Below, piece by piece: positions 3,001-24,329 of a stretch of DNA of 64,000 bases. The translations under genes were made by a program, and so were the position numbers. A model generated the notes under the pieces. That model ran no database searches. It was not told the origin of the DNA and saw nothing but the letters and a program-made list of their open reading frames with translations. How positions within the stretch are numbered: the first letter of the stretch is position 1; every line of letters starts with the position of its first letter. The stretch comes from Paracoccaceae bacterium (lineage in GTDB: Bacteria > Pseudomonadota > Alphaproteobacteria > Rhodobacterales > Rhodobacteraceae): assembly GCA_033344815.1 (NCBI GenBank), contig JAWPMR010000001.1, positions 2,962,136 through 3,026,135 on the forward strand, written 5' to 3'.

Positions 3001-3321
3001 ATCTGTGGCCGTAACGATACCTTCGTAGCTTAGAAATTCGACGACGGCCCCGGTGTTGTTTACCAATGCCATGCCGTCGGGCGACCCGTTTTGCAACCCG
3101 TTTGTCGGGAGCGATACCGTGACAAATCCGACACCCGCACCGGCATCCACAACGGTGAATGGGGACAGATCGATCGTTCTGTAGGTCGCACCGTTGCTGC
3201 CGTTGTAAAGCGTGATAGACCACCCCGTCAGATCAAAACCCGCGGGCGCTGCTATTTCAATGAATTCGCCAACATCCGCACCCGCGTTGTCATAATGGAA
3301 TTCGTTAATAAAAACTGACAT
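1..3321 (-). CDS. ExeM/NucH-family extracellular nuclease (3' end beyond window)
   Basis: The frame is open for 1107 codons from ATG 3319-3321 to the left edge, so the C-terminus is missing. The start MSVFINEFHYDNAG is the usual opening of this family: a lamin-tail (LTD) domain at residues ~1-110. Two nearly identical LTD domains follow (~172-345 and ~347-510, each with INE, DEFVEIVNTG and NQSLTRDPD-like motifs), then a fourth (~515-680). Next comes an OB-fold-like segment (~690-960), then the start of an endonuclease/exonuclease/phosphatase domain from ~975 (FKVASLNVLNFF, then DADVLGLVEVEN, whose Glu is a metal ligand in this fold). GGGGA lies 9 nt upstream of the start. Family members are secreted or surface DNases that release phosphate and nucleosides from extracellular DNA. 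No Sec signal is visible at the N-terminus, as is common when export uses a C-terminal type I signal, which cannot be seen here. The family call is strong; the substrate is inferred. Confidence 0.88.
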   Translation of the reverse strand, partial: MSVFINEFHYDNAGADVGEFIEIAAPAGFDLTGWSITLYNGSNGATYRTIDLSPFTVVDAGAGVGFVTVSLPTNGLQNGSPDGMALVNNTGAVVEFLSYEGIVTATDGPAVGLTSTDVGFSEPGDTPVGQSLQRQGTGSEAGDFVFAGPLGATPGAVNEGQSFGTVVPVLPSLVINEVLADPDASVALGDANGDGARDATQDEFIEIVNTGDTEADLSGMTISDGFGVRHTFAEGTTLAAGAALVVFGGGTPTGDFGGAQVFTASTGALGLNNGGDSVTLATADGDALAEFTYGSEGGTDQSLTRDPDSTGAFVQHTGATGAAGAVFSPGTQVNGDPFLAPPTATPVLTINEINADPAGDLTGDANGDGTRDATQDEFVEIVNTGGFDADLSGVTISDGFTVRHTFAEGTMLAAGAALVVFGGGTPTGDFGGAQVFTASSGALGLNNGGDTITVAATDGTLIAEVSYGGEGGNNQSLTRDPDTSGGFVPHTDATGAAGALFSPGTQADGTGFVGPDPVFTINEVDADTPGTDTAEFIELYDGGVGNASLDGLFVALFNGSNDTVYDTIVLDGLTTDENGFFVIGSADVPNVDLEAFTSNGLQNGADAVALYSGSPADLVDGLPTTTNLIDAVVYDTNDSDDTGLLTALGQTVQYNEDANGLKDTQSNSRSPDGSGDFVAQEATPGETNVIEVDPPEPVVTFIHNIQGSSAGVTKVGLDDGSALEGQVVTIEAIVTAEFLTGGLNGFFVQEEDADTDADVSTSEGLFVSTFSTGAPEGLTVGDLVSVTGTVDEFFGETRVVATNIGVISSDNDAPSVTFVDLGAMGAIETDNDDLDYVTNIEAYEGMLVQFTSALTISEMFNLDRFGQYSVSADGRPTQFTQDNAPDVTGFAAHQQEVAAKSIVLDDGLTEQNPDALQILDGNNGVLDANDSFRMGDTLEAVTGVVAYGFDEFRIHNPEGTYTQTNARPETPEDVGGNFKVASLNVLNFFTTLDDGSTETDTNNEPRGADDLTRFDDGSELANTVPDAEFQRQLEKAVAAIVEIDADVLGLVEVENATESTAVAALVEAVNAELGNDVYGFVNTGIVGGDAITNGIIYKVDSVNLVGD

Positions 3322-5834: not shown

Positions 5835-8800
5835 ATGGTTGTTGCGCGCACGGACTCTGAATCTGTAAATGTTTTTGTTGAGGGGGATCAAACTAGGGTC
5901 CAGTTGCAGAGCCTGGATGGCGGAGGTTACGTCGCCGTATGGATGTCAACAGGTGAAAACGGCTTTGGCTTCAGCCTCTACAGTCAAGAGTACAACGATT
6001 TTGGCGAACGCATTGGGACACCGGCCGTTCTGAGATCGACAACTGTTGCAAACAGCGACAGTACCTCCGTTACAGGATTACAGTCAGGCGACTTTGCCGT
6101 GTCATGGCTAGAGGGTAGTGCGGTTTATTCAGGCGTGTTTGCGGCGGATGGGACGCCTCTGGTGGAGCCGGTCGTTGTGGCGAGCGGTATTTCAACCGGC
6201 TACAGCACTTCAACGCAGATTTTGCCCGACGGCTCCTTTCTGGTGACCTACAGCGGTTTCAACGCAGCGACGAGCACGTGGGACGTCAGCGCGCAGCGTT
6301 TGAATGCCGATGGAACGTTGAACGGTTCATCTTATGAATTGTCGCCCGCAGGCGCGACGCAGGAGTATTTGCCGGCCACGACGGTGCTGAACAATGGCGA
6401 CGTAGCAACGGCTTATTACGACGCCGATGCGCGCGTAAGCGTGGTGACGTCCAACGCCGATGGCTCAAGCATCAGCGCGCCAGTTCAGATCGCCCGCGTA
6501 AATTCGGTTTCTTTCGAGGCTCTTGATATCGTTGCGCTCGCAGGAGGCGGATATGTGGTCGTCTGGACGGAAAGCAACTCTGACGGGAGTGGCGTTGGCA
6601 TTGTGGCGCAGCTCTTTGATGCAGCGGGCAACACGGATGGCGCGCCCATCGACATCAATGAGGCGACGATCGGTTCACAAAACCAACCCGATGTGATTGC
6701 CACACCGGACGGTGGTTTTTTCGTGGTCTGGAGCAGTGTTTACAATGTAGCGGGGCAAGCGCCTTATGACATCGTGGGCCGCGGTTTTGGCGCCGATGGG
6801 ATTGCGAAATCCGGTGATATTGTTCTGAACGAAGGAGAGGCGGATTTTTCCGAATTCCCGTCGGTCACATTGCTCTCTAACGGCGCATATGTGGTGGCGT
6901 GGAATGTCGGCGGCGTGGCTGGTGATGGCTCGGGCGAGGGCGTTAAGCAACGTATCTTCTCGGAGGATGGCGTCATATTGAATATCCCGGAGTCCCCGGT
7001 GGTTGAAGGGCTGGCGCTGGAGCAAACCGTCTCTGAGGATGACGTGAATGGCGCAGGCGTTCTGTTGGATACCAACGGGGCGGCTGCGGTTTCCGGCCCG
7101 GCAGATTTCGATGGCGGGCGTCTTCTAGTGATGCGCAACGATCCTGATGATCCGGTGGGTGTGAACGACAATCAGGTGTTTAGCCGCGATCAGGATCAGG
7201 TCACAGTCAACAATCAAGGCACCGGAGCTGGCCAGATTGGAGTGTCTGGCACTGCAGTGACTTTTGGCGGCACCCAGATCGGGACCATCACAGGCGACGG
7301 CATTGCTGGTGCAAATCTGGAAATACAACTCAATGCCAACGCAACGCCGCAAGCGGTCGAGGCCTTGGTCGAAAACCTGCTTTATCGCAACGGGTCGGAT
7401 GATCCCGAAGAAAGCCTTGAGCTCTCCATTTTCCTTGAGTCTGGCGATGGCGCGTCATCTGCGCCGGTAACGATCACGATCAATGTGGAACCCGTCGTGG
7501 ATGCGCCGGAACCCATTGGGGTGGACCGTCAGGTCAACAGCTTTTTCAATAGCACGCAGGATGAAGTTGATATTGCCGCTCTCAATGATGGGGGATGGGT
7601 TGCGGTTTGGACGTCCGTGGGTCAGGACAGTATCCAAGGCTCCAACGATGGCATCATCCAGCAGCGTTTCAACGCCGATGGCGTGCCGATCGGACCAGAG
7701 GTTGTCGTCAACACGCAAACAGTGGGTGTGCAAAACGATCCCGCAGTCGCAGCGTTGACAGGCGGTGGCTGGGCGGTCAGTTGGTATGATCAGAACGACA
7801 GCCCAAACGGCTTTGTCAAAGCACAGATCTATGGGTCGGATGGCGCGCCGGTTGGCGGCGAAATCAATGTCCCTACCACGCTGTTTTCAACGCAATTCCA
7901 ACCCGATATCAGTTCTGATGGGGCAGGCGGGTTCTACGTAACCTGGTATGCGCAGTCCCAGACCACGGGGTCGACCGACATTCGCGTGCAGCGCTTTGAT
8001 GACACGGGTGCCAAGCAGGGCAATGAAATCACCGTAAACGCGGAAACCGACGGGACGCAGACCCAGCCCACCGTCGCTGCGCTTTCAGGCGGAGGTTTCG
8101 TTCTCAGCTGGTCTGATTTCAACAGTAACCTGGGCCCATCAACCAATATCACGGCGCGTGTTTTCGACAACAGCGGCAACCCCGTGTCCGGCGATATTGC
8201 GGTCAACACCAATCGCCCCAACGAGGAAACAGACAGTCAGATCACCGCCCTGACAGGGGGCGGATTCGTTGTGACGTGGACGGCGGCCTCGGCACAGGAT
8301 GGCAGCAGCAACGGTATTTTTGGCCAGATCTTTGACTCAAGCGGCGCGCCACAGGGCGGCGAGTTCCAGGTCAATGAATTCACCAGCAGCGACCAGAGTC
8401 AAAGTACGATTACTGCGCTTGATACCGGTGGGTTTGCAGTGGCCTGGCAGAGTTTCCAGAACAACAGCACCTATAATGTGTTTGTGCAGTTTTTCGGGGC
8501 TTCAGGCGAACGCATCGACAGCCAGATTTTGGTGAACAGCAATGTCGCCGGCAGTCAGACGGCGCCCACGATTTCGACACTGGCCAATGGCGATCTGGTT
8601 GTCGGCTGGGTGGATACGGGTGGACAGGATGGCAGCGGTTCAGGTGTATTCCAGCGCATCGTCGGCAACCCTGCGAACTATGCTACGGTGGAGTCCGCGC
8701 CGCAGTTGGCTATTGCAGAACTGCAACGTGAATTTGCTGAATCAGATGTGAACGGGGGCACCCAGAAACTGATGCCCGCCGTTGCGGTCGGGGATACAGA

Positions 8801-11800
8801 CAGCGCAGATTTTGATGGTGGCACATTCGTTGTGCTGCGTCTTGTCGACAATAACGTCGAGAACCAGTTTTCCAGCCCGGATGATGGCACGCAGGACCAG
8901 CTTGGCATCGCCAGTGAGGGCGGGATTTCCACGTCTGGCACGGCGGTTTCGTTCAACGGCACGCAGATCGGCGTGATCACCTCGGACGGGGCGGCGGGCG
9001 ATCTCGCGGTCGATCTGAACCAGAACGCCACACCGGCAGCGGTCGAGGCTCTGGCGCAGGCGGTCACGTACAGCAATCTGTCTGATGATCCGGCCGCACT
9101 GCGCGATTTCCGGGTGGTGCTGTCGGATGGCGATGGCGGTGTATCGATCCAGCAGATCGTACAGGTCACCGTGATCCCCGAAGCGGACGGCGCGGTACCG
9201 GTTGCGGACGAGGTTCAGAACAACACCTTTACAAATTCAACACAGCAGTTTTCCGACATCGCCGTTCTGAATGACGGTGGCTGGGTTGTGGTCTGGGAAA
9301 GCACGGGCCAGCAGAGCTCTGGCACCAGTGTGTACGCGCAGCGCTACAGCGCGGATGGCAGTGCTGTGGGCGAGGAATTCCTTGTGGATTCCAATCCGAT
9401 CAATTCCCAGTCTGAATCGGCCGTGACCGGCCTGAGCGACGGTGGTTTTGCGATCACTTGGTACGATTCCAATCAATCCGGCGTGCGGGTGCAACTGTAC
9501 AATACGGACGGCAGCACGCGCGGCGGCGAGACCGTAGTAGAAACGCAAATCAGTTCGACGCAGTCTCAACCTGCCATTGCGTCCTATGATGGTGGCTTTG
9601 CCATTGTCTGGGCCGACTTCGGATCGGTCAGTGGTGATATCAAACTGCAGCGTTTCGACAATAGCGGCAGCACGGTTGGTAGTGAAACACAGATCAACGA
9701 CATCACTGTATCCCGGCAGGACACCCCGCAGTTGGCAGCGGAAAGCGATGGATCCCTGCGCGTGGTCTGGACGGACCAGGGCGGCTCGGATGGCAATTTT
9801 TATGGCGTATATGCCCGTGACGTGGCCGCGGACAACACCCTTGGCGGTGCGCAGGAAGATCTCGTCAACACGTTCACGGCCAGCTTCCAATATGAACCCA
9901 CAATCGCGATCCTGAATGACGGTCGCAGTGTTGCGATCTGGCGCGACGATGCCGGGCTTGATGGGTCCGGATCTTCGATACAAGGGCAGGCTTTTGACGC
10001 CAGCGGTGCGCCCATTGGCGGCCAGTTTCTGGTCAATGAATTTGGTTTCAGCACGCAAAGTGCACCGGACATTGTAGCGCTTGCTGACGGTGGATTTGCC
10101 GTTGTCTACCAAAGCGCCGGCAGTCTGGATGGCAGCGGGACCGGTATCTTTGTGCAGGAGTACAAAGCAGATCTGTCGCGCCGGGACGGCGAGCAGCAGG
10201 TCAATGTGGAATTCAGTGGTACGCAGTATGCGCCAAGCATTGCCGCCACGGCGACGGGCTATGTGGTGACATGGTCTTCGCAGACGTCCCTCACCGCGGG
10301 CGATGGGTCAGGGATCGGCGTATTTTCACGCGTCTTTGGTGATAACACGACGCCGGTTCCGGCCAACGCATTGCCAGAACTGAGCGATCTTGAGGCCTCT
10401 GTGAGCGTCGCTTCGGACAACGCGGCAACACCAACGACCATACCTGCCCAGATCATCGACGATTCGATCCAGATCACCGATGCGGACAGCGGTTTCGCCA
10501 ATGGCTCTCTCGAGGTGATGCACGATGGCGATGGCACATCTGCCAGCGACCAACTGAGCATTCTGGATGGCAAGGGGATCACAACCTCCGGCAGCAATGT
10601 GCTCTTTGACGGGGTAGTGTTCGGCACGGTGCCAGGCAGCGAAGATGGCGTTAATGGTGCCGATCTGCGCATCAATTTCAATGCCAATGCAACACAGGAT
10701 GCGGTGCAGGCATTGGCCGAGCAGATCGGTTACAGTTCAACAAGTTATGCGTCATCCTCTTTGCGGGAAGTCACATTCCAGGTCACGGATGCAGGCGGTG
10801 CCACGAGCGCAGGGCAGACGATTTCCATTCGCCACCTGTCGTCCGTTTTCCCGGCTGCGATTGTCTTGACGGACAATACCAATGTCACCTTCGATGAGAG
10901 CGCTCTCAAGTCAGCGCCACAGATATTCGATGGTGCCTTTGATTTCGATTACTCAGAAAGTGACGGCTTTGATGGCGGGCTGGTTTCGGTCACAGCGATT
11001 TCTTTCCGGGCTGATTTTGGGCGCTTTGAAACCCTGTCTGTTGTTGATCAGGGTTCCGGGGCAGGTCAGATATCAGTCAGTGGCAATCAGGTCAGTTTTG
11101 AAGGTACCGTGATCGGCACGATTGATGGCACGCTGAACGGTGAGGCTGGCGCTGCGCTGCAAGTCAACCTTGGGACAGGCGCCACTGAGGATGCGGTTGA
11201 TGCATTGCTCGAAGCGCTTGCACTGCAGTACGCGTCGAATGAGCCGAGAGAGGCCAATGTGTACCGCTTCCGGGTCGAGGATGCTACCGGGCGACCGGCG
11301 ACTGCAGATGTGACCGTGACTGTTGTTCTTGAAGATGACGGGTCATTGCAACCTCTGGGCGATGAAGAGCAGGTCAACAGCTTTGTGGAAGGCGGGCAGG
11401 AACAGCCTGACGTCGCGGCCCTGACAGATGGGGGATATGTGGCCGTCTGGCAATCCAACAATCAGGACGGCACCTTCGAGTTTGATATTTATGCTCAGCG
11501 CTATGACGCGGATGGATCCCCCGTCGGTGGGGAGTTCCGGGTCAATGTTGCCGATCAGGGTTTTGGAACAAACAGTAACCCGACAGTATCAGGGTTGGAA
11601 AACGGTGGTTTCGCGGTTGCCTGGCAGAACAACAATGGCGAAATTTATGCGCGGACCTATGATTCCAGCGGTGCATCTTCGGGGGAGTTCATTGCCAATG
11701 ATCAGACCTCCTCGACGCAGAGCTTGCCGGACATTCAGGGCCTGTCGAACGGCAATATCCTGATCTCATGGCAGAGCGTGACCAGCGCAGGTGCCGGGGA

Positions 11801-14800
11801 TGGCAGCAGCAACGGGGTTATTGGCCGCTTGTTCACGGCAGATGGCACGCCCGTGTCCGACACACCCGGCTCGGATGACATCATTCTCAATACGACCACA
11901 ACCGGGTCACAGGTGAATGTGTCGATCTCCGCGCTTGGCGCCGGGGGGTTTGTGGCGGTCTGGGAAGATGATGCCAATGGCGATCTGAAATTCCAGCGCT
12001 TCGATCAGAATGGTGCGACACTTGGATCCGAAACTGTTGTCAGGACCTTGATCACAACCTCCTATGGTGATCCAGTCGTCACCGAGCTGGCAGGCGGCGG
12101 CTTCGTCGTGGTGTTCACTGATTTTGACGGCAGCGGCGAGGGCATTTTCCAACAGCTCTATACTGCGGCGGGGGTTGCGGATGGCGGCCCGGAATTGGTC
12201 AACCCGGTTGTCCAGTCGACGCAAAACGCGCCGGATGTTACGGCGGCCGCAGATGGCGGTTGGCTGGTAACATGGCAGTCCAATCAGGCTGAAGACGGTT
12301 CTGGTTTGAGCGTTCTGGCGCAAAGCTTTGCCGCAGATGGCTCGCGCATCGGTGAGAGCTTCATCGTTAATGAGAAAACAACCAGCTCGCAGTTTAATCC
12401 GGCCGTGACAACACTGGCGGACGGGCGCGTAGCGGCAGTTTGGGTGTCGATCACCAGCGGAGGAAATGCCGGCGATGGCTCCGGCAATGGTGTCTTTACC
12501 CGCCTCTTTGGCTCTGACACGGATACGGCAGCGAGTGCAGATCCCATCGTTGGCGGATTGACCGAAATCACGCTGAGCGAAGATGACGTGGACGGGGCGC
12601 CGGTGTCCCTTACTGGACCGGGCACGGTTGTGGTCAGTGATGCCGACAGCGCTGATTTCGACGGGGGCCGGTTGTTGATCGGCGTTGTGGACGAAACAGA
12701 TGTGCGCACGCAGTTCACGGGTGTGGACGGGGCTGCGCAGGACAACCTGACGGTTGCATCCGCTTCCGTGGCGTTGAATGGCAATGATGTCGAAGTCGAC
12801 GGTACAGTGGTGGGCACATTGCTCAGCGATGGTCAGTCTGGTGCGCCATTTGAGATCCTGTTCAACAACAATGCCACCGTTGAAGTCATCGAGGAAATTT
12901 TTGATGCGATGCGGTATTCGAATTCCTCTGATGATCCGGAGGCCAGCCGCACGTATCAGGTGGTTCTGACCGACGGGGACGGCGGTTCATCCGAACAGTC
13001 CAAGTTTGTGGTCAACATCACGCCGACCTCCGACACAGACGGGCCGATCGATAGTGAAGCCCAGGTTAACTCCGCAACGGCAGGCACGCAGGACGAGCCC
13101 GAAGCGGCGGGCCTGACCGGGGGCGGTCATGTGGTCGTCTGGGAATCCACAAATCAGGATAATCCCGGCGACAATAATACCGGCGTCTTTGGCCAGTTGT
13201 ATGACGCCAACGGTCAGCCGAATGGCGTAGAGTTTCAAATCAACACAACATTCGAAGGGGCGCAGAACCGTCCCGATGTGGTGGGCCTTTCCAATGGCGG
13301 GTTTGCGGTCATTTGGGATGGTGCGGGCGCGCAGGGCACAGGCATTTATGCGCAGCTTTTCGACGCGACAGCTCAGCCGGTTGGCAATGAATTCCGGGTC
13401 AATGACAGCGATCAAAGCGAAGTTTCCCCGCGCATCGCGGCCAGTGACACCGGATTTGCGGTGGTCTGGGCCGGATCCAGCGATGTCTTGATCAAAACCT
13501 ATGACAATGACGGAAACGCCGTAACCACCGCGACCAATGTCACAGGCGGCCAATCCAACAGTGAGTCTGAAACCGAGATCGTGGCACTGGCGGACGGACG
13601 CTATGTTGTGTCTTACACCTACAGCAGCACCAACCAGCCAGACACCAGCAGCAATGGCGTTTTTGCCCAGATCATCAATGCAGACGGGTCTGTCGCGGTG
13701 TCTGAGTTCCTGGTCAACACGGATACGCTCAACAGCGAATCTGATTCCAGCAGCGGTGCGTTAAGCGATGGTGGCTTTGTCATCGCCTGGACTGCAGGCA
13801 GTGCGCAGGACAGCTCTTCACAGGGAGTCTACGCGCAGATTTTCAACGCAGATGGCAGCAAGCGTGGCGAAGAATTCCTCGTCAATGAGCTCGTCGCCAA
13901 TACCCAGGCCGATGCATCGGTAACAGGTCTGGCCGATGGCGGTTTTGCCATCAGCTTTACCAGCAACGATTTCGTGCTGGACGGATCAGGCAACGGTGTC
14001 TTGGTTCAGCAATATGACGCGGGCGGCAACCGTCTGGACGGGGCGCGTCTCGTCAATGAAGAAACCAGCGGCAATCAGTCACAAAGCACGATTGCGGCCC
14101 TGTCCAACGGCGGCTTCGTCGTGGGCTGGACATCGGTCACGTCCGGGTCTGCCGGAGATGGTAACAGCAATGGCGTCTTCCAGCGGATCTTTGGTGATGC
14201 GGGCGATTACAACGTCGCCGGGCGCCCCGTGATCGAGGGGGTGAATGACACGCGCACCTTCGTCGAAGACGACATCAACGGGGCACCACAGCTGATTGAT
14301 GCAAACGCCGCCGTGGCCCTGTCGGATATGGACAGTACCGACTTTGATGGTGGCTTCGTCCGGGTGGACGTGGTTGTCGCGGAACGTGGGTATACCGATC
14401 AGTTCAGCCCGCCGGATGATTTGACACAGGATCAGCTCAGCCTGTCACAGACCGGGGGCGTGACCCTATCGGGCAACGCTGTGTCGGTTGATGGTGTGCT
14501 GGTGGGTGCAATTGTGTCCACCGGTGTCGGCGGGCAACCGCTGCAGATCGATCTGAACGCCAATGCGACGGTCGAAGCCGTCGAGCGCCTGATCGAAAAC
14601 CTTGCCTATCGCAACGCTTCTGATGATCCATCCGAAAACCGGACGCTTCAGATACAGGTCGCGGACGGTGATGGTGGTGTGTCCGATGCCGTGCGTGTGG
14701 AACTGGTCATCGAGCCCAGCGTGGATGGTGTTTTGCGCGAGTTCCCGGAACGTCAAGCCAATACGACCACGCTCAGCGATCAGAGTGATTCCTCTATTGC

Positions 14801-17800
14801 AGCCACGGACGAGGGCTTTGTCATAATCTGGCGTAGTTTCGACAACGAACCCAATGTGGCATCTACATACGGCATCTTTGGTCAACGGTTCGACACGACA
14901 GGAAATCCCATTGGTGATGAATTCCTGATCAATACAACAGAGGCTGGAAGTCAGTTGGATCCGCAGGTCACAGGCCTCACCGGTGGCGGTTTCGTGGTCG
15001 CTTGGGGTGATCCGGGTACGCCGGATGGGCAGGATATTTTCATCCAACGCTATGATGGCAATGGCGATCCTGTGGGTGGCGAAACACAGATCAACACCTT
15101 TGTCAGCAGCACCCAACAAGATGTTGAAATCATCGAATTGGCCAATGGCGATTTGCTGGCGGTCTGGGACAGCTTTGGGGTATCTACCGGAACGGGAATT
15201 GGTTGGGATGTCGTTGGCCAGATCATTGACGGCGGCACCGGCGCACTTGTGGGCTCTGAGTTCCTGATTAATCAGACAACGGCGACCACACAACAGGACG
15301 TGTCGGTTGAAGCAACCGCAGGAGGTGGTTTTGTCGCCACGTGGCGGACGGATGACGGGAGCATTGACGGGGCGTCTTCGGCGGTCCTTGCAAGGATCTT
15401 TGATGACTCCGCTTCGGGATATGCCCCGGCGGATGACGAGTTCCTCGTCAACACCACCACCAGTGGTGCACAACAGGACAGCGCGGTCGCAGTTCTGAAC
15501 GACGGCAATTTTGTTATCGTCTGGGAAGAACCAAGCGCGGACGGCAGTACCACTGGCATCTTTGGTCAGATTTACGCGTCTGACGGGGCGCTGGTTGGTG
15601 GCGAATTCCGTGTGAATGACAACCGGCTCTTCGCGCAGTCTGATCCCGGAATTACAGCGCTCGACAACGGCGGTTTTGCAGTTGTCTATTCCGACAACTC
15701 AGGGTTGGACGGTTCAGGCACAGGTGTCTTCCTGCAACAGTTCAATGCGCAGGGGAACCGGATTGACGGTGCCGTTCAGGTGAATACCGAAAACTCCAGC
15801 ACCCAGAGCCAGGCGGAGATTGCCAACATCGGCGGCGGCCGGATTGCGGTCACCTTCACTTCCAACACAAGTGCGACAGCCGGTGACGGTTCCAGCAATG
15901 GTGTTTTCTATCAACTGTTCAACCAAGTGGAACCGCCGATCAGCGATCTGGCCGTGTCACTGGATGAAGACACAACCTATACTTTCTCCATCGCGGATTT
16001 TGACAACGCACTTGAGGGGCCGCTGGCTTTGATCCGTCTGGATGTTGTGCCAAGCTCGGGCGAGTTACTGCTTGACGGATTGCGTGTATCAGGGGGCGAA
16101 ACCGTCACGGCGCAACAGCTGATTGACGGCGATCTGGTTTATGATCCGGCACCGGATTTCAACGGGTTCGACAGCTTCTTCTGGTCCGGCAGCACCGATG
16201 GTGTGACCTTTACACTGATCCAGACGGAAGGTTCTGTTTCTGTCGCACCGATCAATGACGCGGTGGATCTGCAGGCGCAGCCCGATTTGGTTCTGCCTGA
16301 ATCCGCAGGCTTCAACCTGTCCATTCCTCTGACAATCGGCGATCCGGACAACAGTGACACCTACACAGTCACCGTGGATTACGGTGAAGGCGATGCGCCG
16401 CAGGTGTTCAACACCACGTCCAAGTCACCCTTTATCCAGAACCGCTATGAGGATGAAGGCACCTATGCGGTGTCGGTCACGGTGGATGACAACAACGGCT
16501 CGTCCGAGACGATCAATTTCGATGTGACCATTGAAAACGTCGCTCCAAATGCGGGCAGCAATTTCTACGGCACGGATGAGGATACGGCACTGTCGGGTCC
16601 GAACATCTTGAGCAATGATTCCGATCCAGGGCTGGACCTGTTCACGATCACGGCGATCAACGGGGTGGCCTATACTCCCGGTGATACGGTGGTCCTGCCA
16701 AGCGGGGCTACGGTTTCGGTGGCCGTCAACGGTGCGCTGTCCTATGATCCGACGACGTCTACTAGCCTGCAGAACCAATCAGACGGTGATTTCACCGACG
16801 ATACCTTCAGCTATACGATCACAGATGATGGCGGTCTGTCCGATACGGCGGATGTCACCGTCCGGGTGACTGGTAGCGATGATTTCGCTGCGCAGGATGA
16901 TGTGCTGACGGTGGATGAGGATTCCTCGATTACCGGTTCGCTGCTCGATGACAATGGCAATGGCGCGGATACCGATCCAGAGGGTGATACAATCACCATC
17001 ACCGAGATCAACAACCAGCCCGCACTTGTTGGCGCTCCTGTGGTGCTTTCGGGCGGCGGTGTCCTGACGGTTCAATCCGATGGCAGCTTCATTTTTGACG
17101 CCTCCGGCCAGTACGAAGAGTTGGGCGTCGGGGAAACGCGTCTCGTGACCTTTACCTATGATGCGATTGAAGCGGGCGAGGGCGATACCGCCAACGCGCA
17201 GGTCGAGATCACCGTTACCGGTGTGAATGATGACCCGACCGCGAACAATGATCTGGTGAACATCGATTTCGAGACGGAATCCGGCATCATCAGCCCCTTG
17301 CTCAATGACTTTGACATAGACGGTGATACGTTGACGCTGACTGATGTGAGTGATCCTGCGAATGGGTCGGTTGATATTGTGGGCAACACCTTCACCTTTA
17401 CGCCGGATGAGGGTTTCTCTGGCGATGAGATCGTGACTTATACGCTCTCTGACGGGAATGGCGGCACAACCACGGCTGACGTCACCCTGCGCGTTGCCCC
17501 ACCAGACAACCGCGACCCGAATGCGGTGAATGACACCTTTACGATCAATGAGGACACGCAGACCACATTTGATGTGGTGCTGAATGATACTGATCCTGAT
17601 GGTGATACGGTCACGATTTCAAGCGTCACACAGCCGTTGAACGGGTCCGTCTTTGTTTCTGGCAATCAGGTGGTGTTTACACCTGATCAGGATTTCAATG
17701 GCGCGACGAGCTTCACCTACACGGTGATTGACGGCAACGGAGGCACTGACTCTGCCGAGGTTACTGTGACGGTGGATGCGGTCAATGATGATCCAATCGC

Positions 17801-20800
17801 GGTACCAGATACGATTGTAACTACAGAGGATGACGTCGAAACCGGTAACATCCTTACCAATGACACGGATGTTGATCTCGATACGCTGAGCGTAAGTCAG
17901 ATCAACGGCATTGATCTGGGACTGGTGGACAGCGATCCGGGTACAGCCGGCATCCAGTTTGACCTTGCCGGAGGCGGGGTCGTCACGATTGATGCAAACG
18001 GTGATTACAGCCTTGATACAAATGGGGCCTATGACGCGCTGGCGGTCGGGGATTCTGCGGCTGAAAGCTTTACGTATGAAGTGAGCGACGGGGCAGGGGG
18101 CACGGATACCGAAACGGTTTCCATCACCATCAGCGGGGTAAATGATGACCCTGATGCGGTGAATGATACGCTCAACGTGGCTGTGGACACGGACCTGAAC
18201 GGCAATGTTCTGGACAACAACGGCAACGGTCCAGACAGCGACGTGGACGCGGGTGACATCCTTGCAGTGACTGAGTTGCAGGGCAATCCGTTCAGCAACG
18301 GCGATGCCGCGACCTTAGCCTCTGGCGCAGTGGTCAGCTTAAACTCAGACGGGACATTCACCTATGAGCAAAATGGGGCTTTTGCCGGTCTCGGCGCCGG
18401 TGAAACCGCAACAGACAGCTTCACCTATGGCATCAGCGACGGCAACGGCGGCACGGATACGGCGACGGTGACGATCACCATTGGCGGTTCCAATCAGGCG
18501 CCAACAGCCGTGGATGACGGGTTCAGCACGGATGAGGACAGCTCCTTTACCACTGGTTCTGTTCTGAGCAACGACACCGATCCGAATGGTGACACGCTGA
18601 ATGTTATTGGTCTCGATGACACCGGAACAATTGGCAACGTCACTGATAACGGGGATGGTACCTTTGACTATGACACCAACGGTCAGTTTGAATCGCTGGC
18701 GGTGGGTCAATCCACGACGGATAGCTTTGAGTACACCATCAACGATGGCAATGGCGGCACTGATACGGCCACCGTCACGGTCACCGTCAATGGAGTGAAT
18801 GACGCTCCTGATGCGCAGGACGATGGGTTCAGCACGGATGAGGACAGCGCCACAAGCGGAAATGTCTTTGACGACAACGGCAATGGCGCAGACGCTGACA
18901 TCGACACAGGTGACAGTTTTACGGTCAGCGCGGTTGAAGGATCGGGCGCGGATGTGGGTCAGGAAATTACCCTGGCCTCCGGTGCACTTGTGACGCTTAA
19001 CGCAAATGGTACGTTTGATTATGATCCAAACGGTCAGTTCGAAACACTGGCGGTGGGTCAGTCCACGACAGATAGCTTCAGCTACACCATCGATGACGGC
19101 AACGGCGGTACGGATACGGCCACTGTTACGATCAATATCGACGGTGTGAATGACGCACCGGTCGCGCAGGACGATGGGTTCAGCACGGATGAGGACACAG
19201 CCACAAGCGGCAATGTTCTGAGTGACAACGGCGCTGGCGCAGACAGCGATATCGACGACGGTGACACGGTGACCGTCAGCGCGGTTGAAGGATCGGACGC
19301 GGATGTGGGCCAGGAAATTACCTTGGCCTCCGGTGCACTTCTGACGCTCAATGCGGATGGCACGTTTGATTACGATCCAAACGGTCAGTTCGAAGCACTG
19401 GCGGTGGGCCAATCCACCACAGACAGCTTCACCTACACCATCGATGACGGGAATGGCGGTATGGATACGGCCACTGTTACGATCAATATCGACGGCGTGA
19501 ATGACCCGGTCTTGGCCGTTGATGACAGTTTCTCGATGCGCGAAGACGATGTGCTGACCGCTACGGTTGCAGCCAATGATATTGATCCGGACGGGCCGTC
19601 TGCTGTCTACTCCCTTGTCGATACCTCGGGATTGGGCGCGGCAAGTGGCGCGCTCGAATTTAATGATGACGGCACATTCGCATTTGATCCGTTTGGGTTC
19701 TTCCCGGAGTTTGACGATGGAGAGTTCTTTGACCTGTCGTTCGAGTATCAAGTCAATGATGGGGCGGGCGGCATTGATACGGCCACTGTCGAGATCGAAG
19801 TCGAAGGCGTCACCGATCCCGAGATCATCCCGACAATTGTCACGGTGGATGCACCGGAAGTTGTCGAAGGCGATAGTGGCACAACCCAGCTGGTGTTCAC
19901 CTTCACCAGGTCAAATGCTGATCCGGGCTATTTCCCGCCGGAATCATTCTTCACTGCTGAAACGGCAGATGGCACAGCGACGCTCGCCGATGGGGACTAT
20001 GTGTTCAACCAGAACACCGTTACTTTTCTCGCTGGAGAGTTTACGGCAACCTTTGCAGTCACGATAAACGGGGATCTGGACATTGAACCGGACGAATTCC
20101 TGCAACTGCAGCTATCGCAGGGCCCGGCAGAGCAATACGTCTTCCCAGGCGCGGTAACGGGTACCATACTCACCGACGACTTCCCTGTTGTGAATGAAGC
20201 ACCTGATGCCGTTGACGATGATGTTGAGACGGATGAGGACACGTCCGTGTCCTTCAATATCCTCGACAATGACAGCGATCCAAATGGTGATCCAATCCTG
20301 CTGAATGAGGTGTTTGACAGTGCAGGGGCGTTGATCCCGTTCAACGTTGAAACGGATCTGCCAGAAGGTGGCACGGTGCTCATCGATGTTGATGGGTCGG
20401 TGGTCTTTAACCCGAATGGCGATTACGAGGCGGTAGGCTTCAACCCGCAACCGGAACCGCCGGCAATCACCTTGGAGCTGAGCTACACTGTTGTCGAAGA
20501 CACGGACGCAGGTTTGATCAGCGATCCGGCGACAGTTTTCATTGAGATTCGGGGCGTCAACGACGCACCTGATGCGCAGGATTTGGTTGGTTCTGTGGAT
20601 GAGGGAGCGTTGTTTACCGGCAATTTGCTAGCCGGTGCGACGGATGTGGACGGCGGGCCGCTGACGGTCACCAGCCTGAATGGCACGCCCGTTGGCACAA
20701 CGTTTAATGTGACCTCAACCGGTGGGAGAGAGGGCGCGGTGATTGCTGCCGCGACGGGCCTGGTGAACATCGCTTTTGATCAGATAGGCAATTTCGAGGA

Positions 20801-21575
20801 TCTGGGCGAAGGCGAGACGGACACAGTCCTTTTCACCTATGAGATCAGCGACGGCAATGGCGGCACGGATACCGCAAGCTTCACGCTGACCATCAACGGT
20901 GAAAACGACGCGCCAACTTTCGACGGTCAGAGCAGTTTCACCATCGACGAGAACACCACGCTGGTGGGCGATATTCTTGGCGATGACGTGGAGGGCGACC
21001 AGATCATCTATGCCATCGACGGCGGCGCGGATGCAGCACTGTTCGAGATCGACGAGGACACCGGCAGCCTGTCATTCATCAATGCGCCCGACTTTGAAGC
21101 GCCCGGAGATGCGGGCGGTGACAACCAATACGATGTTACCGTGTCCCTTTCGGATGGATTGGCTGAAACCACTGTCGATGTCATCGTGAATGTTGAAGAC
21201 GTCGAAGAGGGGACAGGTCCGCTGGTGATCATGGGCACCGAAGGGCGGGACCGGTTGGTCGGGACAGAGGAGGATGAAGTCTTCTATGCTCTTGGCGGAT
21301 CGCTGGACCAGATGAGCGGGAACGGTGGTTCGGATACCTTTGTCTTTGGTGCGGAACTGACCAACGGCAGACGTGAAAGGGATGTCATCCGGGATTTCGA
21401 TGCAACAGACGATTTGTTGATCCTGGCCGATGACAATTATACGGTGAGAGAGCTGAGTTCGGGGCTCGTGATTTCCCACGGCGGGGATCGCGATCTCATC
21501 TATGTTCTTGGCGACAATCTCACCGTTGACAACGTTCAAATCGGAATAGGCACGTTTGAAGATTATCTGGTATAA
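5835..21575 (+). CDS. Giant secreted multi-propeller / VCBS-cadherin-like repeat protein (5246 aa)
   Basis: Residues 1-~3370 contain 42 repeats of ~50 residues (core pattern Q-RF-DG-GGEF-VN--T---Q--P-V--L-GGF-V-W) in six groups of exactly seven, at residues ~1-385, 563-950, 1124-1505, 1842-2230, 2405-2792 and 2970-3367. The seventh repeat of each group is longer; in all but the second it carries a GDGSxxGVF-like insertion. This suggests six seven-bladed beta-propellers. Six ~165-residue modules (DSADFDGG..., SDDP..., DGDGG) separate them; two of these are adjacent at ~1508-1836. Residues ~3370-5128 hold cadherin-like/VCBS repeats (VNDAP, DEDT), one PKD-like domain (~3500-3580) and a Calx-beta-like domain (~4670-4770). 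The end has only one degenerate RTX-like stretch (GTEGRDRLVG, then DTFVFG and a DFDATDD motif), as in type I secretion C-termini. No N-terminal Sec signal is visible. Likely a surface adhesin or biofilm matrix protein; no partner transporter is in the window. Confidence 0.88.
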   Translation: MVVARTDSESVNVFVEGDQTRVQLQSLDGGGYVAVWMSTGENGFGFSLYSQEYNDFGERIGTPAVLRSTTVANSDSTSVTGLQSGDFAVSWLEGSAVYSGVFAADGTPLVEPVVVASGISTGYSTSTQILPDGSFLVTYSGFNAATSTWDVSAQRLNADGTLNGSSYELSPAGATQEYLPATTVLNNGDVATAYYDADARVSVVTSNADGSSISAPVQIARVNSVSFEALDIVALAGGGYVVVWTESNSDGSGVGIVAQLFDAAGNTDGAPIDINEATIGSQNQPDVIATPDGGFFVVWSSVYNVAGQAPYDIVGRGFGADGIAKSGDIVLNEGEADFSEFPSVTLLSNGAYVVAWNVGGVAGDGSGEGVKQRIFSEDGVILNIPESPVVEGLALEQTVSEDDVNGAGVLLDTNGAAAVSGPADFDGGRLLVMRNDPDDPVGVNDNQVFSRDQDQVTVNNQGTGAGQIGVSGTAVTFGGTQIGTITGDGIAGANLEIQLNANATPQAVEALVENLLYRNGSDDPEESLELSIFLESGDGASSAPVTITINVEPVVDAPEPIGVDRQVNSFFNSTQDEVDIAALNDGGWVAVWTSVGQDSIQGSNDGIIQQRFNADGVPIGPEVVVNTQTVGVQNDPAVAALTGGGWAVSWYDQNDSPNGFVKAQIYGSDGAPVGGEINVPTTLFSTQFQPDISSDGAGGFYVTWYAQSQTTGSTDIRVQRFDDTGAKQGNEITVNAETDGTQTQPTVAALSGGGFVLSWSDFNSNLGPSTNITARVFDNSGNPVSGDIAVNTNRPNEETDSQITALTGGGFVVTWTAASAQDGSSNGIFGQIFDSSGAPQGGEFQVNEFTSSDQSQSTITALDTGGFAVAWQSFQNNSTYNVFVQFFGASGERIDSQILVNSNVAGSQTAPTISTLANGDLVVGWVDTGGQDGSGSGVFQRIVGNPANYATVESAPQLAIAELQREFAESDVNGGTQKLMPAVAVGDTDSADFDGGTFVVLRLVDNNVENQFSSPDDGTQDQLGIASEGGISTSGTAVSFNGTQIGVITSDGAAGDLAVDLNQNATPAAVEALAQAVTYSNLSDDPAALRDFRVVLSDGDGGVSIQQIVQVTVIPEADGAVPVADEVQNNTFTNSTQQFSDIAVLNDGGWVVVWESTGQQSSGTSVYAQRYSADGSAVGEEFLVDSNPINSQSESAVTGLSDGGFAITWYDSNQSGVRVQLYNTDGSTRGGETVVETQISSTQSQPAIASYDGGFAIVWADFGSVSGDIKLQRFDNSGSTVGSETQINDITVSRQDTPQLAAESDGSLRVVWTDQGGSDGNFYGVYARDVAADNTLGGAQEDLVNTFTASFQYEPTIAILNDGRSVAIWRDDAGLDGSGSSIQGQAFDASGAPIGGQFLVNEFGFSTQSAPDIVALADGGFAVVYQSAGSLDGSGTGIFVQEYKADLSRRDGEQQVNVEFSGTQYAPSIAATATGYVVTWSSQTSLTAGDGSGIGVFSRVFGDNTTPVPANALPELSDLEASVSVASDNAATPTTIPAQIIDDSIQITDADSGFANGSLEVMHDGDGTSASDQLSILDGKGITTSGSNVLFDGVVFGTVPGSEDGVNGADLRINFNANATQDAVQALAEQIGYSSTSYASSSLREVTFQVTDAGGATSAGQTISIRHLSSVFPAAIVLTDNTNVTFDESALKSAPQIFDGAFDFDYSESDGFDGGLVSVTAISFRADFGRFETLSVVDQGSGAGQISVSGNQVSFEGTVIGTIDGTLNGEAGAALQVNLGTGATEDAVDALLEALALQYASNEPREANVYRFRVEDATGRPATADVTVTVVLEDDGSLQPLGDEEQVNSFVEGGQEQPDVAALTDGGYVAVWQSNNQDGTFEFDIYAQRYDADGSPVGGEFRVNVADQGFGTNSNPTVSGLENGGFAVAWQNNNGEIYARTYDSSGASSGEFIANDQTSSTQSLPDIQGLSNGNILISWQSVTSAGAGDGSSNGVIGRLFTADGTPVSDTPGSDDIILNTTTTGSQVNVSISALGAGGFVAVWEDDANGDLKFQRFDQNGATLGSETVVRTLITTSYGDPVVTELAGGGFVVVFTDFDGSGEGIFQQLYTAAGVADGGPELVNPVVQSTQNAPDVTAAADGGWLVTWQSNQAEDGSGLSVLAQSFAADGSRIGESFIVNEKTTSSQFNPAVTTLADGRVAAVWVSITSGGNAGDGSGNGVFTRLFGSDTDTAASADPIVGGLTEITLSEDDVDGAPVSLTGPGTVVVSDADSADFDGGRLLIGVVDETDVRTQFTGVDGAAQDNLTVASASVALNGNDVEVDGTVVGTLLSDGQSGAPFEILFNNNATVEVIEEIFDAMRYSNSSDDPEASRTYQVVLTDGDGGSSEQSKFVVNITPTSDTDGPIDSEAQVNSATAGTQDEPEAAGLTGGGHVVVWESTNQDNPGDNNTGVFGQLYDANGQPNGVEFQINTTFEGAQNRPDVVGLSNGGFAVIWDGAGAQGTGIYAQLFDATAQPVGNEFRVNDSDQSEVSPRIAASDTGFAVVWAGSSDVLIKTYDNDGNAVTTATNVTGGQSNSESETEIVALADGRYVVSYTYSSTNQPDTSSNGVFAQIINADGSVAVSEFLVNTDTLNSESDSSSGALSDGGFVIAWTAGSAQDSSSQGVYAQIFNADGSKRGEEFLVNELVANTQADASVTGLADGGFAISFTSNDFVLDGSGNGVLVQQYDAGGNRLDGARLVNEETSGNQSQSTIAALSNGGFVVGWTSVTSGSAGDGNSNGVFQRIFGDAGDYNVAGRPVIEGVNDTRTFVEDDINGAPQLIDANAAVALSDMDSTDFDGGFVRVDVVVAERGYTDQFSPPDDLTQDQLSLSQTGGVTLSGNAVSVDGVLVGAIVSTGVGGQPLQIDLNANATVEAVERLIENLAYRNASDDPSENRTLQIQVADGDGGVSDAVRVELVIEPSVDGVLREFPERQANTTTLSDQSDSSIAATDEGFVIIWRSFDNEPNVASTYGIFGQRFDTTGNPIGDEFLINTTEAGSQLDPQVTGLTGGGFVVAWGDPGTPDGQDIFIQRYDGNGDPVGGETQINTFVSSTQQDVEIIELANGDLLAVWDSFGVSTGTGIGWDVVGQIIDGGTGALVGSEFLINQTTATTQQDVSVEATAGGGFVATWRTDDGSIDGASSAVLARIFDDSASGYAPADDEFLVNTTTSGAQQDSAVAVLNDGNFVIVWEEPSADGSTTGIFGQIYASDGALVGGEFRVNDNRLFAQSDPGITALDNGGFAVVYSDNSGLDGSGTGVFLQQFNAQGNRIDGAVQVNTENSSTQSQAEIANIGGGRIAVTFTSNTSATAGDGSSNGVFYQLFNQVEPPISDLAVSLDEDTTYTFSIADFDNALEGPLALIRLDVVPSSGELLLDGLRVSGGETVTAQQLIDGDLVYDPAPDFNGFDSFFWSGSTDGVTFTLIQTEGSVSVAPINDAVDLQAQPDLVLPESAGFNLSIPLTIGDPDNSDTYTVTVDYGEGDAPQVFNTTSKSPFIQNRYEDEGTYAVSVTVDDNNGSSETINFDVTIENVAPNAGSNFYGTDEDTALSGPNILSNDSDPGLDLFTITAINGVAYTPGDTVVLPSGATVSVAVNGALSYDPTTSTSLQNQSDGDFTDDTFSYTITDDGGLSDTADVTVRVTGSDDFAAQDDVLTVDEDSSITGSLLDDNGNGADTDPEGDTITITEINNQPALVGAPVVLSGGGVLTVQSDGSFIFDASGQYEELGVGETRLVTFTYDAIEAGEGDTANAQVEITVTGVNDDPTANNDLVNIDFETESGIISPLLNDFDIDGDTLTLTDVSDPANGSVDIVGNTFTFTPDEGFSGDEIVTYTLSDGNGGTTTADVTLRVAPPDNRDPNAVNDTFTINEDTQTTFDVVLNDTDPDGDTVTISSVTQPLNGSVFVSGNQVVFTPDQDFNGATSFTYTVIDGNGGTDSAEVTVTVDAVNDDPIAVPDTIVTTEDDVETGNILTNDTDVDLDTLSVSQINGIDLGLVDSDPGTAGIQFDLAGGGVVTIDANGDYSLDTNGAYDALAVGDSAAESFTYEVSDGAGGTDTETVSITISGVNDDPDAVNDTLNVAVDTDLNGNVLDNNGNGPDSDVDAGDILAVTELQGNPFSNGDAATLASGAVVSLNSDGTFTYEQNGAFAGLGAGETATDSFTYGISDGNGGTDTATVTITIGGSNQAPTAVDDGFSTDEDSSFTTGSVLSNDTDPNGDTLNVIGLDDTGTIGNVTDNGDGTFDYDTNGQFESLAVGQSTTDSFEYTINDGNGGTDTATVTVTVNGVNDAPDAQDDGFSTDEDSATSGNVFDDNGNGADADIDTGDSFTVSAVEGSGADVGQEITLASGALVTLNANGTFDYDPNGQFETLAVGQSTTDSFSYTIDDGNGGTDTATVTINIDGVNDAPVAQDDGFSTDEDTATSGNVLSDNGAGADSDIDDGDTVTVSAVEGSDADVGQEITLASGALLTLNADGTFDYDPNGQFEALAVGQSTTDSFTYTIDDGNGGMDTATVTINIDGVNDPVLAVDDSFSMREDDVLTATVAANDIDPDGPSAVYSLVDTSGLGAASGALEFNDDGTFAFDPFGFFPEFDDGEFFDLSFEYQVNDGAGGIDTATVEIEVEGVTDPEIIPTIVTVDAPEVVEGDSGTTQLVFTFTRSNADPGYFPPESFFTAETADGTATLADGDYVFNQNTVTFLAGEFTATFAVTINGDLDIEPDEFLQLQLSQGPAEQYVFPGAVTGTILTDDFPVVNEAPDAVDDDVETDEDTSVSFNILDNDSDPNGDPILLNEVFDSAGALIPFNVETDLPEGGTVLIDVDGSVVFNPNGDYEAVGFNPQPEPPAITLELSYTVVEDTDAGLISDPATVFIEIRGVNDAPDAQDLVGSVDEGALFTGNLLAGATDVDGGPLTVTSLNGTPVGTTFNVTSTGGREGAVIAAATGLVNIAFDQIGNFEDLGEGETDTVLFTYEISDGNGGTDTASFTLTINGENDAPTFDGQSSFTIDENTTLVGDILGDDVEGDQIIYAIDGGADAALFEIDEDTGSLSFINAPDFEAPGDAGGDNQYDVTVSLSDGLAETTVDVIVNVEDVEEGTGPLVIMGTEGRDRLVGTEEDEVFYALGGSLDQMSGNGGSDTFVFGAELTNGRRERDVIRDFDATDDLLILADDNYTVRELSSGLVISHGGDRDLIYVLGDNLTVDNVQIGIGTFEDYLV
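18795..19496 (+). repeat. Two tandem, nearly identical 351-bp VCBS repeat units
   Basis: Units 18795-19145 and 19146-19496 are each 117 codons. Both begin GTGAATGACGC and share long near-identical stretches, such as gacgatgggttcagcacgga and the gcggatgtggg...ggaaattacc segment. A more diverged unit precedes them (~18500-18794). The high nucleotide identity points to recent in-frame duplication by recombination. Copy number probably varies between strains. Confidence 0.8.
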
Positions 21576-21638
21576 CTGGTCTGCGGGCCAAAGGGGTTTT
21601 TTGATATGCACACTGTGACGCGTAAAAGAGGAAGCAAC

Positions 21639-22241
21639 ATGCGCCAGAAAATAGTCGGGTTTGCTGCTGCCTGTGGTCTGGGCCTGATGGCAGCGGGCGC
21701 ACAGGCCGCCAGCATCGGTGATTTTACATTTGGCTCTAATATCCTGCCGGCAGCAGCTCTGCTCGACGTCAGTGTTTCGACCGGCTCGGGGGGCAATGCG
21801 ATCGTTGAAGGCGCTGATCTTTCCTTCATTGATCTCGATGCGGTTTTTGCGTCGGTTGAAGTCGATTCAGATGGTAATTTTGTATCCGACGCGGCGCCTG
21901 GTCTGGATATCACTTCATTTGATCTCACGCAGAGCATATTTGGCGTGGGAATGGACACCGCTGTGGATGTTGCGGCCTCCACCTTCAGCATTCTTTACGA
22001 TGTGACTGGCACAAACGATTTCAGTAGCGATGACTTCGTGCTGGCAGTGTTGGATTTTGGTGCAGGTTCGTTTTTCGACCCCTTTGATGTTTCGCTAATG
22101 GATTTAGGATTCGCCGAGTTACAAGTCCTTTCCGCTTCTCGCATAAACCCGATTCCACTGCCTGCGGGCCTACCGTTGATGATTGTGGGTTTGGGCGGTT
22201 TCGCTGTCCTGTCCCGCCGCCGCAAACGCAAGGTTTCTTGA
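21639..22241 (+). CDS. VPLPA-CTERM sorting domain-containing exported protein
   Basis: 200 residues. ATG 21639 is chosen over an upstream in-frame start because AAGAGGAAG sits at ideal spacing and the protein then opens with a Sec signal peptide (MRQKIVGFAAACGLGLMAAG, cut after AQA). The body is acidic and low in Cys, with many D/S/F. The C-terminus has the tripartite sorting signal: IPLPAGLP, a hydrophobic helix (LMIVGLGGFAVL), then RRRKRK. In PEP-CTERM/VPLPA-CTERM systems an exosortase removes this tail and hands the protein to the outer surface or extracellular polysaccharide. Neither exosortase nor polysaccharide genes are in the window. It lies 63 nt after the giant gene on the same strand, so the two could be cotranscribed. 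The role of the body is unknown. Confidence 0.85.
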   Translation: MRQKIVGFAAACGLGLMAAGAQAASIGDFTFGSNILPAAALLDVSVSTGSGGNAIVEGADLSFIDLDAVFASVEVDSDGNFVSDAAPGLDITSFDLTQSIFGVGMDTAVDVAASTFSILYDVTGTNDFSSDDFVLAVLDFGAGSFFDPFDVSLMDLGFAELQVLSASRINPIPLPAGLPLMIVGLGGFAVLSRRRKRKVS

Positions 22242-24025: not shown

Positions 24026-24329
24026 GGAAGTGAGCTATTCGAAGGACAAGAATCTTGACTCTAGTTTTCATTTACGTGACTTAGGATAGATAAAGGTATA
24101 ATAAAAACTGGGACTTACAAAACCTCAGAGGCCAAATCGTGCGACTCCTCACAGAAAGATACGCCGTCCAGCGCCTTATCCCAATGTTCGGGACGGCGGA
24201 GTTACGGATACTCGTCTCATTCGCCAGAGCACCTATGTTTTGAACGCATTCCGTGTTGTAACTGTCTGCCGGAAGTGGTCAGCTTTGATTGAGTAAACTT
24301 CATTGACATGGTCACAAGGGAGGCAATCC
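24026..24329. other. Intergenic region upstream of the isomerase/HupE pair
   Basis: No gene supported. It contains an AT-rich patch around 24085-24110 (aggtataataaaaac) that could hold a promoter for the downstream pair. Nothing else recognised. Confidence 0.35.

Follow-up and report, generated by a model that had tools for sequence, protein, structure and literature searches.

We analyse a stretch of 64,000 nucleotides from a Paracoccaceae bacterium (assembly GCA_033344815.1, contig JAWPMR010000001.1), which we call the window. A single open reading frame within it, with an ATG start (5835..21575, plus strand), encodes a giant protein of 5,246 amino acids. The N-terminal two thirds of this protein is a string of six repeat groups, and the conclusion that these groups are seven-bladed beta-propellers is well supported by repeat counts, a structure model and comparison of the model with solved structures. 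We consider it somewhat better than an even bet that the whole is a type-I-secreted giant surface protein, whose string of six propellers on a stalk of immunoglobulin (Ig)/cadherin-like repeats serves as a multivalent adhesin in biofilm formation or attachment.

According to this reading, six closed seven-bladed propellers, joined by modules of about 165 residues (one of them double), would be followed by the stalk and then by a C-terminal export region. Type I secretion exports a protein C-terminus first; such export would display an array of propeller heads, each of which probably binds a glycan or matrix ligand weakly, and many heads together would yield multivalent binding, as in a biofilm or attachment adhesin. 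From the features described below we infer the export route, the surface location, binding, adhesion and the part in retention that we consider for a neighbouring gene.

Seven-repeat groups and the propeller fold

The original prediction, made from the letters of the window, proposed 42 repeats in six groups of exactly seven. Using a profile hidden Markov model seeded with 13 repeats of the giant protein and iterated on that protein, we find groups of repeats of about 55 residues beginning at residues 29, 585, 1147, 1864, 2428 and 2991. Groups 2-6 contain seven repeats each, and group 1 contains six, plus a degenerate fourth at about residues 187-220. That is, 41 of the 42 proposed repeats are detected, and the spacing accommodates the last one, of which only a fragment is matched (residues 201-220, score -2.8) within a gap of 104 residues, long enough for two units. 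When the profile is instead built from three giants, the same 41 repeats are recovered along with one spurious match (residue 4799, E = 43), and repeat 2 of group 1 scores only 4.1 bits. The propeller part of the gene is laid out as follows.

5835..21575, plus strand: giant protein, 5,246 amino acids (open reading frame)
5835..6971, plus strand: propeller 1, the most divergent, with blade 4 degenerate (repeat profile, propeller tree)
6972..7496, plus strand: linker module 1 (spacing between repeat groups)
7497..8684, plus strand: propeller 2, with seven four-stranded blades in the AlphaFold2 model (repeat profile, model, Foldseek)
8685..9182, plus strand: linker module 2, with strands and short helices in the model (spacing, AlphaFold2 model)
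9183..10358, plus strand: propeller 3 (repeat profile)
10359..11333, plus strand: double-length linker, two module-like copies by direct reading (spacing)
11334..12530, plus strand: propeller 4 (repeat profile)
12531..13025, plus strand: linker module between propellers 4 and 5 (spacing)
13026..14222, plus strand: propeller 5 (repeat profile)
14223..14714, plus strand: linker module between propellers 5 and 6 (spacing)
14715..15929, plus strand: propeller 6 (repeat profile)

The ends of the groups are informative. The last repeat stops at position 29-34 of the 51-position profile in all six groups, and in groups 2-6 a partial repeat (within profile positions 28-51) precedes the first full one; the profile detects no such leading part-repeat in group 1. 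Judged from sequence, truncated last repeats and leading part-repeats are the velcro pattern, in which the first strand would complete the last blade of a closed propeller. The last repeat of each group had been described as longer and, in all groups but one, as carrying a GDGS-type insertion. A longer loop with the motif AGDG[S/N] is indeed present in five of the six last repeats (propeller 2 lacks it), but all six are cut short as just described, and GDGS also occurs in one repeat that is not the last, the third of propeller 4. Likewise, an alternation of propellers with modules of about 165 residues describes four of the linkers (166-176 residues) but overlooks one of 326 residues between propellers 3 and 4. 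The expectation of a single giant protein holds, since there is one open reading frame, but the gene continues for 5.6 kb beyond position 15935, the end of propeller 6 and of the span originally described.

A structure prediction had been proposed as a check, and we modelled residues 555-1116 (propeller 2 and its module) with AlphaFold2, using an alignment of six segments from the window and 16 from relatives. The model has a mean predicted local distance difference test score (pLDDT) of 86.1 and a predicted template modelling score (pTM) of 0.84. We read its strand list as seven four-stranded blades: blades 1-3 are full, the outer strands of blades 4-6 are short and broken, and blade 7 has three strands, with the N-terminal strand (5-12) standing as the fourth. 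The rings of the other five propellers presumably close as well.

A Foldseek search with this model against solved structures returns 443 matches at E ≤ 0.001. The best 50 of the 443 have identities of 9-17% and template modelling (TM) scores no higher than 0.45 (by query) or 0.63 (by target), and we take most of them to be beta-propellers: sialidases, a rhamnose-glucuronate lyase, galactose-oxidase-like oxidases and an NHL domain. Propeller families such as these vary in blade number, so that Foldseek backs the fold class and not the blade count. Searched by sequence, the solved structures give one match, at E = 2.5. Repeat count, velcro pattern, model and Foldseek results together support the seven-bladed propeller originally proposed; the candidates of an open solenoid or of Ig domains as the fold of the repeats find no support in the model of propeller 2, in Foldseek or in the count of seven.

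Since the top Foldseek matches include sialidases, a lyase and oxidases, one might suppose that the propellers are themselves enzymes, cutting or otherwise modifying polysaccharide in the manner of sialidases, lyases or oxidases. We regard this as quite improbable, given the 9-17% identity of those best 50 of 443 matches and the generic way in which propellers match one another. Moreover, no Pfam or NCBIfam family, enzymes included, scores over its cut-off in residues 1-2055 (propellers 1-3, most of propeller 4, and linkers). The best NCBIfam match there is to NF053835, the PDIAV motif-containing lipoprotein; it is weak and lies in propeller 2 (residues 685-750, E = 8e-05), with 22.2 bits where the cut-off is 90. 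When 22 propeller-module segments are compared with Pfam at E ≤ 0.01, twelve families match somewhere, none of them in more than three segments and none a propeller family.

A search for homologues with the same periodicity had also been suggested, and it bears the seven-fold grouping out. The sample comprises the window, 77 loci of public genome records (given handles beginning with L below), 16 stretches of related genomes and two plasmid records. We excluded 11 groups cut by the ends of frames or contigs, counted identical groups once, and counted a gap of more than 85 residues as one unseen blade. Seven repeats are found in 180 of the 217 whole, non-identical groups, the window's six included, among relatives that were found with queries from the window protein, which favours similar propellers. 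With 180 of 217 at seven, the grouping is not a matter of chance. The remaining groups comprise 19 of six repeats, five of eight, five of fourteen, five of three to five, and one each of fifteen (14 detected plus one unseen), twenty, and twenty-one (19 detected plus two). Seven-bladed rings set directly side by side would produce linker-free runs of 14 and 21 such as these. In a Magnetococcales protein (L062), five groups consist of six repeats apiece and the linkers measure about 290 residues or more; this may be a six-bladed variant, or the seventh blade may have diverged.

Relatives and the positions of propellers

We sampled 292 genomes of the order, scoring no more than four candidates in each; 28 of them contain a match at E ≤ 1e-30. 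Judged by the length of the open frames, giants occur in this set only in the window's genome and in one congener, all other matched frames being shorter than 2,000 amino acids. Two further congeners carry giants and, going by record titles, other Rhodobacterales and Betaproteobacteria have giants with six to eight propellers, two of them on plasmids. Single-propeller relatives of roughly 400-1,000 amino acids are common in bacteria; the genome of the window itself encodes several. Annotations of relatives refer to their other parts (Ig-like, tandem-95, DUF4214, calcium-binding). As to a phage origin, we find no match in 50,697 phage records (E 1e-5), and PHROGs give none for propeller 2 with its module or for the C-terminus. 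By record title, the repeat family also reaches beyond Proteobacteria, to L063 and L109 (Rhabdochlamydiaceae), L097 (a metagenome-assembled genome of Akkermansia), L055 (Nocardioides), L113 (Oceanobacillus) and L065 (Laspinema); several of these records are metagenome bins and may be contaminated.

For the comparison of strings we use 19 proteins hand-picked from the matched frames and two plasmid records, with the near-copies L023 and L041 omitted. Fifteen of the strings have six propellers or more, and 14 of these contain one linker of about double length (320-340 residues), the exception being L037. The number of propellers differs (6, 7 or 8) by whole propeller-plus-module units. L037, with seven propellers, has neither the double-length linker nor a counterpart of its class's fourth propeller, which would fit the loss of a single stretch. 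In L068 (Zoogloea), propellers P2/P3 and P5/P6 are identical or nearly so, from a recent duplication of units or from an effect of assembly; this suggests that whole units are gained.

We built a quick tree from 103 of the 120 propellers, having dropped three short ends, eight near-copies in L026, five six-repeat groups in L062 and one propeller of L115. The tree, in which 22 of the 99 inner branches are drawn open, groups propellers by position. At positions 1, 2, 4, 5 and 6, those of the window, L039 and L114 form groups of three, the placement of the window's propeller 1 being unsure owing to its long branch; at position 3 the window pairs with L114 and not with L039, which sits apart from them in the tree. 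Propellers of the eight-propeller class are collinear, as are those of L037 if its fourth is taken as missing, and the last propellers of the six- and eight-propeller classes are sisters. In the Rhodovulum giant (L114), the start of propeller 1 (14046-14346) lies outside the annotated gene, possibly through a frame break or an error in the start site.

Sequence identities tell the same story within each class. In the eight-propeller class (five giants, without L037, positions assigned from order and tree), propellers at the same position share 59.4% identity (69 pairs, minimum 47.2), versus 41.1% at different positions (478 pairs, maximum 49.5). The corresponding values in the six-propeller class are 46.7% (18 pairs) versus 39.5% (90 pairs). 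Between classes, identity gives most of the window's propellers, the last one among them, no collinear best match, and positional orthology is therefore clear only within classes. Such likeness at the same position fits what would be expected if each head has a role of its own.

These patterns bear on the possibility that the propellers are structural spacers that lift or space other parts, or filler of a matrix or surface layer, without a ligand of their own. Their strong repetition, and a copy number of 6, 7 or 8 that changes by whole units, would suit a spacer, as would the identical or near-identical propellers of L068 (P5/P6 and P2/P3), which point to duplication without divergence. However, the positional identity of propellers is kept between genera within the classes, which is more than a homogenised spacer would need, and single-propeller relatives are common, so that a lone propeller is useful without a string. 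We consider the spacer explanation unlikely.

Probable export and the sorted neighbour

Beyond the propellers, the giant gene and the gene that follows it contain these features.

15930..21194, plus strand: stalk, with PKD-like (just under cut-off), Big_9, Cadherin_4/5, VCBS and tandem-95 repeats (family matches)
21195..21572, plus strand: presumed type I secretion signal, a C-terminal region with weak likeness to serralysin (NF035945, 32.5 bits, cut-off 500)
21606..22241, plus strand: 211-residue protein; Sec-like start, VPLPA-CTERM sorting signal (TIGR03370, 31.3 bits, cut-off 25.35)

The giant is probably exported, as suggested by the Ig/cadherin-like extender repeats matched in its stalk, by its C-terminus, which weakly resembles the serralysin family, and by a PrtD-type exporter scoring over cut-off elsewhere in the genome (TIGR01842, 653 bits). 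Direct reading finds no Sec signal at the N-terminus. The protein contains 0.3% lysine and no cysteine; this fits the low basic content reported, in the excerpt of the source available, for repeats-in-toxin (RTX)-like proteins of Roseobacter strains (PMC3933643). In the betaproteobacterial loci L050 and L051, the giant and a PEP-CTERM gene are followed by a PrtD-type gene over cut-off, with an HlyD adaptor next, over cut-off in L050 and as a similar frame by eye in L051.

How might such a protein be held on the cell? Its repeats start at residue 29, which leaves no room for an N-terminal retention module of the LapA type, and the window's genome has no LapG-type peptidase (PF06035). LapA-style holding is thus unlikely. 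The gene directly downstream, which the original prediction overlooked, offers another answer. Its ATG lies 30 bases past the stop codon of the giant, and its Sec-like start was read directly. A short PEP/VPLPA-CTERM gene stands in this position in 7 of 13 giants (the window, L039, L040, L114, L038, L050 and L051). Five of the seven score over the curated cut-off; those of L040 (16.5 against 25.35) and L051 (15.7 against 16) fall below it and align with the partners of L038 and L050. No such neighbour is found in the other six. In five of these (three congeners, L041 and L037) the frames within 3.5 kb were screened by eye and by pattern, and in L115 the annotation only; L041 and L115 look like the same element. 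Loci L042, L064, L066, L068, L075 and L078, whose 3' side is missing, are outside this count.

Each of the six genomes with a neighbour has 11-36 such sorting signals, and the plasmid has one. By our own arithmetic, the chance of a signal within 1 kb downstream on the same strand is 0.002-0.004 per locus. Thus 7 of 13 is far from chance, with the proviso that shared ancestry makes the loci less than independent. The partners of L038, L040 and L114 align with one another (z 12-53), as do those of L050 and L051 (z 6.1); the window's partner aligns weakly with that of L039 (z 2.7, matched by 5 of 300 shuffles), and the majority of the other pairs do not align at all. We therefore regard the link as one of position, and reject a single family for all partner proteins.

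The window's partner has one clear paralogue in its own genome (40% identity, E = 9e-21), at 3.93 Mb. This paralogue sits behind a second giant Ig/RTX frame, PrtD and HlyD (L158 5-14807; C1 3918004-3932806 of the window's genome), and the 653-bit PrtD belongs to this set of giant, PrtD, HlyD and VPLPA-CTERM genes. When 248 genomes of the family are searched with the partner and its paralogue, both are recovered, along with three weak matches in the 247 other genomes (L160-L162), which cover the C-terminal half of the partner alignment including the sorting signal, and which by eye adjoin ordinary genes. Both paralogues in the window's genome stand beside giants, one of them with an exporter. 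The genome also contains an exosortase-like frame of 583 residues, below cut-off both for TIGR02602 (41.5 bits, cut-off 105.55) and for TIGR04152 (26 bits, cut-off 400).

We tentatively propose, at rather less than even confidence, a two-component surface assembly, in which a type-I-secreted propeller string would be held on the cell by the adjacent exosortase-sorted PEP/VPLPA-CTERM protein. If true, Alpha- and Betaproteobacteria would use this assembly in place of the LapA retention module, different lineages having recruited different partners by sequence, and the recurrent neighbour would link type I secretion with exosortase sorting. Retention could also proceed without a partner: a folded N-terminal propeller may anchor or plug the protein at the outer membrane, the neighbour being an unrelated surface protein. 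Propeller 1 lies at the extreme N-terminus and is the most divergent; the neighbour is missing in 6 of 13 loci, all three congeners examined among them; and the authors of work on BapP, in the part of that paper available, speculate likewise about its N-terminal propeller (PMC12153261). Yet the neighbour recurs in two bacterial classes with mature sequences that are largely unlike, and the partner's one clear paralogue is again beside a giant and a PrtD-HlyD pair. We judge anchoring by a propeller to be somewhat unlikely, only slightly less credible than the two-component assembly.

Weighing the adhesin reading against known systems

Several observations weigh against a type-I-secreted, partner-held propeller adhesin. 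Propellers can also be enzymes or plain spacers. The Foldseek TM-scores of the best 50 of 443 matches are moderate, and the matches are of various blade numbers; 31 of the 217 groups fall off multiples of seven (19 of six, five of eight, five of three to five, one of 15 and one of 20), which unseen or divergent blades may explain in part. The C-terminus reaches only 32.5 bits against a cut-off of 500, and no TIGR01842 exporter matches within the window among the 96 of 168 candidates scored. The partner gene is absent in all three congeners examined, and the lack of LapG in the window's genome means that the protein does not belong to a LapA release system.

The nearest described protein is BapP of Pseudoalteromonas tunicata, which in the part of the source available has 1,600 amino acids, one predicted five-bladed propeller and a predicted Sec signal, and whose deletion impairs biofilm (PMC12153261). 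Like the giant described here, which probably also sits at the surface, it is large and surface-associated, with an N-terminal beta-propeller, Big_9 Ig/cadherin-like repeats and a putative type I link (PMC12153261). Unlike BapP, to which it is likened by description and not by sequence, the window giant has six seven-bladed propellers, 5,246 residues and, by eye, no Sec signal. It shares giant size, acidity, an Ig/cadherin-like stalk and presumed type I export with LapA/BapA-type RTX adhesins, but differs from them in its N-terminal string of propellers and its lack of a retention module and, in its genome, of a LapG-type peptidase. The exporter gene beside a LapA-type adhesin has a counterpart in L050 and L051, but no TIGR01842 match beside the window's gene among the candidates scored. 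Single-propeller proteins belong to the same repeat family but have one propeller, no string and no long stalk, and the Phaeobacter DUF4347 plasmid proteins share the linker module: among the matches listed, they meet only the module end of the query, not the propeller.

The suggestion that the string represents no described class of adhesin agrees with the open-licence papers searched, which, in the parts available, contain no propeller-string adhesin and nothing nearer than BapP (PMC12153261); nor did we find a sorted partner described there. The kind of protein, a giant exported and stalked surface protein, is thus known; what is new is the string of seven-bladed propellers with positional identity, together with the sorted neighbour. 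The usual description of a giant bacterial adhesin is an Ig-like stalk that carries one or a few binding heads; a recurrent string of six to eight propellers, each keeping its own identity, would be another route to a multivalent surface.

Two further features lie near the giant gene. On the minus strand and divergent from it, window positions 1-3321 contain an ExeM/NucH-like extracellular nuclease gene with N-terminal repeats, truncated by the window edge (278.7 bits against a cut-off of 300). At 24303-26188, a peptidyl-prolyl-isomerase-like gene is followed by one for a HupE/UreJ-like membrane protein, both by eye.

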